From NCBI GenBank assembly GCA_029706075.1, contig JAINUG010000014.1:6621338-6685337 (forward strand): 64,000 nt of DNA. The letters run 5' to 3'. This DNA is from Aldrovandia affinis (taxonomy: Eukaryota; Chordata; Actinopteri; Notacanthiformes; Halosauridae). A model generated the notes under the pieces. That model was not told the origin of the DNA and did not search any database. It saw nothing but the letters and a program-made list of their open reading frames with translations. This document shows, piece by piece, positions 34,853 to 52,712 of this stretch (position 1 is its first letter; each line of letters starts with the position of its first letter). Both the position numbers and the translations under genes were made by a program.

Positions 34853-34988
34853 AACACACACACGTGCAAACACACACGCAGACACACACACATACACACT
34901 CACACACTTACTAACACACACACACACACATGCACTCAAACACTCACACACACACACTTACTAACACACACATGCACATACGCATGCG

Positions 34989-35050
<62 letters not shown>

Positions 35051-35092
35051 TGCTCACACACATACGCGCACACACATACTCACACACACATT
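34853..35092. repeat. CA-rich compound microsatellite
   Basis: CA blocks with CTCACA, ATGCACAT and CGCACG interruptions, ending in a pure (CA)n run at about 34994-35047. On the ipo11 transcript this is a long GU-rich tract 25-260 nt upstream of the 34828 acceptor. His-Thr frames here are artefacts. Confidence 0.95.
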
Positions 35093-36363: not shown

Positions 36364-36459
36364 TCTTTGAAGGTCCCGGAGTCCAGGTCCTCTGACATCA
36401 CGTCGTGAAGAGCTTCCACGCAGATGTTGATGATGCCACAGAATTTGTCCTGGATCACG
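36364..36459 (-). CDS. ipo11: ipo11 (importin-11), exon with duplicated acceptor
   Basis: A 96-bp exon: the Ser codon is completed (AG + C), then VIQDKFCGIINICVEALHDV and MSEDLDSGTFK, ending GA/GTGAGC. It matches human importin-11 (SVIQDKFCGIINI...VEGLHDVMTEDPETGTYKD, from memory), part of the C-terminal HEAT array that wraps cargo and RanGTP. The boundary given is the one that reproduces the conserved protein. Three more equally good acceptors lie upstream on the transcript at 36492, 36525 and 36558 because the junction is tandemly duplicated. All keep the frame and would add 11, 22 or 33 residues. Confidence 0.93.
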
Positions 36460-36575
36460 CTGCAGAACACACAGAATTCATCCTGCATCACGCTGCAGAA
36501 CACACAGAATTCATCCTGCATCACGCTGCAGAACACACAGAATTTACCCTGCATCACGCTGCAGAACACACAGAA
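36444..36575 (-). repeat. 33-bp tandem repeat of the ipo11 exon junction, 4 units
   Basis: The unit on the minus strand holds TTCTGTGTGTTCTGCAG plus the first bases of the exon, CGTGATGCAGGATGAA. The unit next to the exon body has the ancestral CGTGATCCAGGACAAA. The four AG/C junctions are spaced exactly 33 bp apart. There is no stop codon in the coding frame across the array, which reads SVMQDEFCVFC. Confidence 0.95.
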
Positions 36576-37087
36576 TTAATCCTTAACAAGCTATATACCT
36601 TCACTCACTTCCACAAAGAAAAACGGATTTGAGGCCGACACCAAAGAATGTGACAATTCTCTCGAACAACCGCTCCCGCGCTGAGGCCACTTTTCTTTAC
36701 GAGAGCTACCCGTGTCACCTCGGCAGGCTTGTCAGGGCAAACTAACATGGCTGCTCCTGAAAAGCCTTTCATATTCAGAAACGCCTGGCAGCACATGCCA
36801 AAGCCACATGGAATATGTTCAATTCTTCTTCTTATGCCCAAAAAAGAAGAAATGAGACTTCACCCCGAGTCTCCACGGCTGGGTTTCCTCGAAACCGGTC
36901 CTCGAACCAGTCCCGAATAATGCGCAGATAAAAAAAAAAAATGAACCTCCATTTATTTACAGCGTTTGATTATCCGTGCTCTCTCTTCCATGTACGTCAG
37001 CATGCTGGAATTCATACTTCGCTCCAACACACTTCACTTCATTGCAAAAAAAAAATATATATATATATATATATATTTATACATATA
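36576..37087. other. ipo11 intron; TA tract
   Basis: Low-copy DNA ending in an A-rich plus (TA)n tract at 37045-37085, directly beside the Tc1 element. Confidence 0.45.
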
Positions 37088-37540
37088 CAGTAGACTGTTT
37101 TTATTCATACCCTTGAAAAAGATGAACAAAAGAGATCATATAAAATAAACTATATAAGTAATGAGTATATTTTATGCTTAAAAAAAAAAAGAAATAATGC
37201 GTTGGCACAAAGCACAATCGAAAGGTTGTTACACAAATTGTAATTTTTCCCCCCAGAAAAATCAAGAATCACAAATATTCACACCACTGTTATCAGTACT
37301 TTGTGGTTCCTCCCTTAGCCATTATAACAGCAAGTAGTCGCCTTCTGTAGTGTCGGGCGAGGTTATGGAACTTCTTGGGAAGGATCCTCACCCATTCCTC
37401 CTAGAGGAATTGTTCTAGTTCCTTCAGATTCTTGGGTTGACTTTTGTGGACTGCTTTTTTGAGTTCAAATTACAAATGTTCAAATGGATTCAGGTCAGGA
37501 GACTGAGATGGCCACGCCAGGACATTGATTTTGTGCTCTG

Positions 37541-41775: not shown

Positions 41776-41897
41776 CTGTTGTCCGAGGGGAGCAGAGAGA
41801 GCAGAGCCAGGGACGACAGCTTCCTCCTCTCGGGCTGCGTGATGTTGTCCATGCGATCCACCCACATCTCGATCAGGCTTCCCAGCGTCTGGTCAGC
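41776..41897 (-). CDS. ipo11: ipo11 (importin-11), internal exon
   Basis: A 122-bp exon starting in phase 0 after ACAG: ADQTLGSLIEMWVDRMDNIT then QPERRKLSSLALLSLLPSDN, ending in AG/GTGAGT, so the next codon is split. WVDRMDNITQPERRKL.ALALLSLLPSDN is the most conserved block of the importin-11 C-terminus and identifies the gene. It forms one HEAT repeat of the arch that binds cargo (for example the ubiquitin-conjugating enzyme UBE2E3 and RPL12, from the literature on the human protein). A 21-bp repeat begins right at the upstream acceptor. Confidence 0.97.
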
Positions 41898-42015
41898 CTG
41901 TCACGGTCAAACCGCAACAACCCACGGTCAAATCACAACAATCCACGGTCAAACCATAAACCCACGGTCAAATCACAACAATCCACGGTCAAACCATAAC
42001 AATCAATGGTCAGAG
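41898..42015. repeat. 21-bp minisatellite at an ipo11 acceptor, about 6 units
   Basis: Unit CACGGTCAAATCACAACAAT plus C, with AAACCGCAA and AAACCATAA variants and one shortened unit. On the transcript it is GATTGTTGTGATTTGACCGT-like and directly adjoins the 41897 acceptor, so it makes up the expected branch-point and pyrimidine-tract region. Confidence 0.9.
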
Positions 42016-44707: not shown

Positions 44708-44855
44708 TGGAGAGAGGAGGGGAGACAGGAGGGGAGAGAGGAGGGGAGGGGAGAAGAGGGGAGGAGACAGGTGTGGACGGGAGGGGAGGAGAGGAGGGGA
44801 AAAGGGGAAGGGAGGAGAGAAGAGAAGAGACAGAAGAGGAGAGAAGCAACTAATT
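44708..44855. repeat. GGGGAGA-type purine tract
   Basis: GAGGGGAGACAGGAGGGGAG-type units. On the ipo11 transcript this is a CT/CCCCT tract running into the 44706 acceptor. Confidence 0.92.
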
Positions 44856-52281: not shown

Positions 52282-52343
52282 CTGAAGAGAGAGAGAGACA
52301 TGTGAGAGATGGGGAGGGAGAGAGAGAGAGAGAGAGATGAGGA

Positions 52344-52424
<81 letters not shown>

Positions 52425-52429
52425 GGAGA

Positions 52430-52465
<36 letters not shown>

Positions 52466-52471
52466 CAGAGA

Positions 52472-52507
<36 letters not shown>

Positions 52508-52532
52508 CAGAGACAGAGACAGAGACAGAGAC

Positions 52533-52589
<57 letters not shown>

Positions 52590-52590
52590 T
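52282..52590. repeat. GA / GAGACA microsatellite filling an intron
   Basis: Purine-only tract with ATGAGGAGAG and GACAGA interruptions. It makes up most of the 431-bp intron between two ipo11 exons. Confidence 0.97.
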
Positions 52591-52712
52591 GAGGAGAGGG
52601 AGAGACAAGAGGAAAACAGCAGGTGGTGGGGGTGGAGGGAAGCTGTCAGTTTACTGTCACCTCTGTCCTGCATCGAGATTCATTCAAACTCCTGCCTTTT
52701 CACCCTCCTCAC

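Follow-up and report, generated by a model that had tools for sequence, protein, structure and literature searches.

A 33-bp minisatellite multiplies a 3′ splice site of ipo11 in Aldrovandia affinis

The ipo11 gene of Aldrovandia affinis has a real and unusual anatomy, in which a minisatellite with a 33-bp unit multiplies a 3′ splice site and thereby presents four in-frame acceptors at the start of one exon. The array lies in a stretch of 64,000 nucleotides (contig JAINUG010000014.1, positions 6,621,338 to 6,685,337), which was analyzed as a whole and is called the window here. We give about an even chance to the explanation that, judging from sequence, the array is a by-product of recent minisatellite growth, spliced leakily but in frame, and without evolved function.

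The gene present in the window is a teleost ipo11, represented by its 3′ portion on the minus strand. Searches by tblastn with human IPO11 (a query equal to the human record at 974/975 residues) located seven consecutive exons, colinear with human residues ~702–923 and all bordered by an acceptor AG and a donor GT. Human residues 820–860 match 41900–41778 and residues 861–893 match 36461–36363; the ends of the two corresponding exons read AACAG/gtgagt (41897–41776) and AAAGA/gtgagc (36459–36364), the slash marking the exon border.

52792–52713, 52281–52201, 44706–44611, 43834–43721, 41897–41776, 36459–36364, 34828–34744, minus strand: ipo11 exons, approximate (tblastn)
41776–41897, minus strand: upstream ipo11 exon, ADQTLGSLIEMW...LLPSDN, donor gtgagt (tblastn and sequence)
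36364–36459, minus strand: conserved ipo11 exon, SVIQDKFCGIINICVEALHDVMSEDLDSGTFK plus the first two bases of the following codon, donor gtgagc

Apart from the array, the gene looks intact. With the array left out, the exons are identical to Megalops atlanticus at 196/220 residues (best among the matches listed), to Conger conger at 192/220 and to Gymnothorax javanicus at 191/219, tarpon and eels giving the best ipo11 protein matches among those listed; by these figures the gene probably comes from an elopomorph other than the three named. Neither tblastn nor a motif search found ipo11 sequence after about human residue 923 in positions 1–34737 of the window, and the final ipo11 intron may extend past it.

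The array spans the 3′ splice site of the exon 36459–36364. TRF delimits it at 36437–36583, with a period of 33, 4.5 copies, 93% matches and a score of 252, and an array of such length and regularity is beyond chance. Its parts, all on the minus strand and, below the first line, read from the letters, are as follows.

36437–36583, minus strand: 33-bp minisatellite across the intron 3′ end and the exon start (TRF limits)
36577–36446, then 36445–36437, minus strand: four full units, followed by a 9-nt partial unit
36576–36578, minus strand: in-frame TAA that closes the reading frame directly above the outermost unit
36569–36577, minus strand: copy of the 9-nt direct repeat AATTCTGTG on the intron side, where the outermost unit begins
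36437–36445, minus strand: exonic copy of AATTCTGTG, the partial last unit

The exon part common to the units is 23 nt, longer than the 16 or so bases first proposed, and the exon copy has three mismatches to each unit. Over the 23 nt compared, units 2 and 3 are identical and unit 1 differs from unit 2 by two changes, a pattern that suggests stepwise growth in which the duplication giving units 2 and 3 came last. The same differences bear on whether a short repeat was collapsed or inflated during assembly. The identity of units 2 and 3 is what such an artefact might leave, but two sites set unit 1 apart from them and three set all of these units apart from the exon copy; because the units differ among themselves, the array is not one error copied. 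Many reads should also be able to span an array of only 147 bp, which counts against this origin, and we regard an assembly artefact as very unlikely.

Each unit carries a consensus acceptor at the exon edge, as expected of a minisatellite with multiple splice sites.

36559–36560, minus strand: outermost acceptor AG; exon start 36558, 33 residues added
36526–36527, minus strand: second acceptor AG; exon start 36525, 22 residues added
36493–36494, minus strand: third acceptor AG; exon start 36492, 11 residues added
36460–36461, minus strand: innermost acceptor AG; exon start 36459, conserved protein, 0 residues added

All four junctions read AATTCTGTGTGTTCTGCAG/CGTGAT and are identical from −19 to +6, the first upstream difference lying at −20. 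Joined to any of the four acceptors, exon 41897–41776 continues in an open frame, so that each alternative acceptor keeps the frame. The TRF array and the four exon starts bear out the original prediction of a tandemly duplicated 3′ splice site with four in-frame acceptors 33 bp apart; its further statements, that no stop interrupts the array, that up to 33 residues can be added and that the innermost acceptor yields the conserved protein, agree with the four open joins and with the tblastn match. The longest insert is SVMQGKFCVFC-SVMQDEFCVFC-SVMQDEFCVFC, placed before SVIQDKFCG, and the shorter joins keep its last two elements, its last one, or none; the predicted SVMQDEFCVFC thus describes two of the units, the outermost being SVMQGKFCVFC. 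The extra CAG found 10 nt inside each unit was rejected as an alternative acceptor, as it is out of frame and causes a frameshift in all four.

How much the open frame says about function can be gauged from what chance would give. A period divisible by three is expected in ~1 in 3 cases, 60% of 20,000 random local 33-mers set in three tandem copies were open in a given frame, and of the 297 possible single changes in the three units only 12 would introduce a stop. Since few changes are seen and stops are rare among the possible ones, an open array is expected without selection, and the open frame together with the period of three is weak evidence for function.

The four identical acceptor sequences mean that local strength cannot separate one site from another. 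The candidate branch points lie at two kinds of place, one above the array and one inside its units.

36575–36579, minus strand: TTAAT, the only YTNAY branch-point-like motif in 36460–36700; its A at 36576 precedes the G of the outermost AG by 17 nt
36487–36491, minus strand: GTGAT, a weaker repeat-borne branch-point-like motif; its A at 36488 is 28 nt above the innermost AG

The GTGAT motif recurs in further units, with its A at 36554 and 36521, again 28 nt above the next AG. No AG intervenes between TTAAT and the outermost acceptor AG, and two studies describe the first AG below a branch point as strongly preferred (PMC7317903, PMC1431707). Because the best branch motif (A 36576) sits just above the array, this rule points to the outermost acceptor. 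That much of the earlier argument from the first AG survives; the energy support for the motif is weak. On a looser YNYTRAY score of six positions TTAAT reaches 5/6 and ties with 36583 and 36628, and the U2 branch-site pairing energy separates it from GTGAT by a small margin (−0.7 against −0.3 kcal/mol). The energy of TTAAT is the lowest only among the 15 positions with a motif score of at least 4; as many as 8/43 A positions in 36430–36640 (motif scores of 3 or below, the acceptor As included) go lower, so that U2 pairing energy discriminates poorly. Going upstream, the first AG is met after 24 nt both from the outermost acceptor, where it lies above TTAAT, and from the innermost, where it is the out-of-frame CAG within unit 3. 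At the six other ipo11 acceptors this distance is 53, 144, 78, 131 or 71 nt, or no AG occurs within 200, and the outermost and innermost acceptors therefore lack the normal AG-free zone (24 nt, against at least 53 nt elsewhere in ipo11). The branch-point evidence is thin; the signals would give the outermost acceptor a mild advantage, and use of the inner ones is possible.

The protein family was surveyed through 240 proteins (120 of 767 and 120 of 769 matches listed), which are mostly gene predictions leaning to the conserved model, apparently do not include this species and, because many are isoforms of single species, are not independent cases. An uninterrupted PSDNSVIQDKFCG-type junction is found in 240/240 of them among the matches listed, including Conger, Megalops and Gymnothorax. 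The spacing between anchors at the junction is 21 residues in 236/236 proteins with both anchors, and the remaining 4 have a change in an anchor residue. From this uniformity, among the matches listed, it can be argued that insertions at the junction are usually removed by selection, and conservation of the alternative forms between species was not found in the same 240. A further search added 68 matches, giving 308 fetched ipo11-related proteins; 14 of the 68 have the uninterrupted junction, and most of the rest stop at the junction or short of it, or omit it. The array words FCVFC, QDEFC and QGKFC occur in 0/308 of these proteins among the matches listed. An ipo11 fragment of Pangasianodon gigas, the best match of this further search, was considered as a second case and rejected, as what it has twice is a set of whole exons (RYPVV to PSDN) and not the array; its repetition is probably an assembly or gene-model duplication.

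These data tell against the idea of an evolved switch, in which copy number or acceptor choice would regulate importin-11. Its attractions are a period divisible by three and units that are all open, but chance supplies such a period and such openness at the frequencies given above, and the array is in no fetched relative among the matches listed. We hold an evolved switch to be highly improbable, and the length-variable protein switch originally proposed is not borne out by 0/308 proteins with array words and 240/240 uninterrupted junctions.

The AlphaFold2 model of Conger importin-11 has a mean pLDDT of 62.4 and a pTM of 0.48, with 10-residue blocks at 82–92 over residues 781–880. In this model the junction, N859/S860, is the end of a loop (853–859) between helix 841–852 and helices 860–864 and 866–880. 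The insert, rich in Cys and hydrophobic residues, adjoins a conserved helix; on the model it would lengthen an inter-helix loop, which may be tolerated. A model built from a 188-residue fragment had a mean pLDDT of 51.9 and was poor, the full-length Conger model being better in the region. The joined exon piece gave one match among solved structures, a DNA helicase with an E of 0.48, and no usable relative; a search of a plasmid collection gave no match, as expected.

Against this background the extreme splicing outcomes can be weighed. If the innermost acceptor alone were used, the three outer units would be plain intron and the array silent. The junction of PSDN-SVIQDKFCG type in all 240 proteins among the matches listed is consistent with this outcome, as are the start of the next Conger helix at 860, just after the loop, and the GTGAT that unit 3 supplies at 28 nt; three identical upstream acceptors and the best branch motif would nevertheless have to be passed, against the first-AG preference, and the proteins are mostly gene predictions that lean to the conserved model, apparently none of them from this species. 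Exclusive use of the innermost site is in our judgement rather unlikely. The opposite outcome, a constitutive outermost acceptor that would give the species an importin-11 with a fixed 33-residue insert, draws on TTAAT at 17 nt, the first-AG rule in the absence of an intervening AG, and the three open extra units. It is unlikely, as 240/240 proteins among the matches listed have no insertion at the junction and a Cys-rich, hydrophobic insert would be set against a conserved helix. A broader proposal holds that both protein length and splice choice depend on the number of repeats, with mainly the outermost acceptor in use, 0-, 11-, 22- and 33-residue forms differing between individuals and the insert lengthening one HEAT inter-helix loop; we consider it quite unlikely.

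The preferred reading, a minisatellite by-product with leaky in-frame splicing, includes a mechanism of origin. The minisatellite would have been born on the 3′ splice site through the 9-nt direct repeat AATTCTGTG, which occurs once in the last 20 nt of the intron and once in the exon 33 bp on, where it encodes part of a KFCG stretch that is invariant in the 22 proteins compared. Because the unit is bounded by this repeat, replication slippage or microhomology-mediated repair would explain the birth of the array. Along with the AG, the 33 bp copied would have carried the pyrimidine-rich tract and the opening codons of the exon, and further rounds would have produced four acceptors, units 2 and 3 being probably the latest duplication; we infer this order of events from the repeat and the unit differences. 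With a period divisible by three, every acceptor leaves an open ipo11 frame, and the allele could have persisted. Splicing would most likely be mixed: the original branch point above the array favours the outermost AG, and the weaker motif in each unit would let inner AGs work, including the one for ordinary importin-11. The array, its acceptors and frames, the microhomology and the motif positions are seen in the sequence itself; acceptor use and the lack of evolved function are what we infer. That 240/240 proteins among the matches listed have no insertion would make a dominant long form surprising, and this counts against the preferred reading.

The closest precedent is the minisatellite of IFI6, whose unit reportedly contains a splice donor, leading to several equivalent splice sites per transcript. 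Both are cases of a splice signal inside a minisatellite unit, a donor in IFI6 and an acceptor in ipo11. Birth of minisatellites by slippage between short direct repeats is said to have been described by Haber and Louis in 1998 and by Taylor and Breden in 2000. In the ipo11 array, too, a short direct repeat delimits the unit and a partial copy ends the series; what is special is the position on a splice site. Tandem acceptors of the NAGNAG type, the subject of PMC2951375 and PMC3250501, form another related class. They likewise have in-frame AGs competing at one exon start, with small in-frame differences in the protein; those AGs are 3 nt apart, whereas the ipo11 AGs are 33 nt apart, each unit having its own tract and a possible branch motif.

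Intron gain by tandem duplication also begins with a duplicated boundary. In the Rogers model, a tandem duplication over an intron–exon boundary copies the branch site together with the pyrimidine tract and the 3′ splice site; in potato RdRp a cryptic GTAAG was activated, and the same study describes fission yeast genes whose repeated 24-bp exonic units contain AGGT, four or two of these units being spanned by an intron (PMC4974935). Another study treats intron gain by tandem duplication in Drosophila (PMC2891723). In ipo11, however, no productive new intron is predicted: the unit does not supply a 5′ splice site with a protein-preserving intron, GTAA being present only in unit 1. A nascent intron through AGG/GTAAAT at 36547, in that unit only, was rejected, as it would leave an 11-nt exon and give a frameshift and a stop with all three inner acceptors. 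The DDX3Y minisatellite MSY2 was likewise set aside as a precedent, being a promoter and 5′ UTR case with another mechanism (PMC3039753). Among the matches listed (titles and abstract openings, and open-licence full text), no printed precedent for a minisatellite multiplying an acceptor was recognised, which is not proof of absence, and no paper on the ipo11 array was recognised among the matches listed.

Repeats beside splice sites are common in ipo11. A tandem repeat lies within 30 nt upstream of 5/7 acceptors, against an expectation of 21% for places drawn at random from the gene stretch (binomial P 0.006); the same measure gives 3/7 for donors (P 0.17) and 4/6 for acceptors with the array left out (P 0.02). 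At a 15-nt limit the counts are 4/7 acceptors (P 0.03) and 0/7 donors, and at a 50-nt limit 5/7 against 3/7. The 33-bp array differs from these repeats in that its unit includes the AG.

Acceptor 41897 adjoins a minisatellite (41902–42012) rich in the YTNAY motif TTGAC, with As at 10, 31, 52, 71 and 92 nt from the exon and no other AG until 131 nt; here the branch-point-like motif is repeated, not the acceptor. Acceptors 52281, 44706 and 34828 stand beside CT-rich or GT-rich tandem repeats (52286–52605, 44709–44800 and 34854–35090, respectively). In the same intron as the array, 37260–37500 on the minus strand resembles by eye the 3′ end of a Tc1/mariner-type transposase, presumably a remnant.

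Four acceptors of the same sequence, 33 nt apart, of which only the first lies close below a good branch motif, make this locus a natural test of 3′ splice-site choice, one that could separate the first AG, the nearest branch point and exon definition as its determinants. If only one acceptor is used, the array shows how freely repeats grow on splice sites; if copy number varies, it would link minisatellite mutation directly to the length of a nuclear transport receptor.
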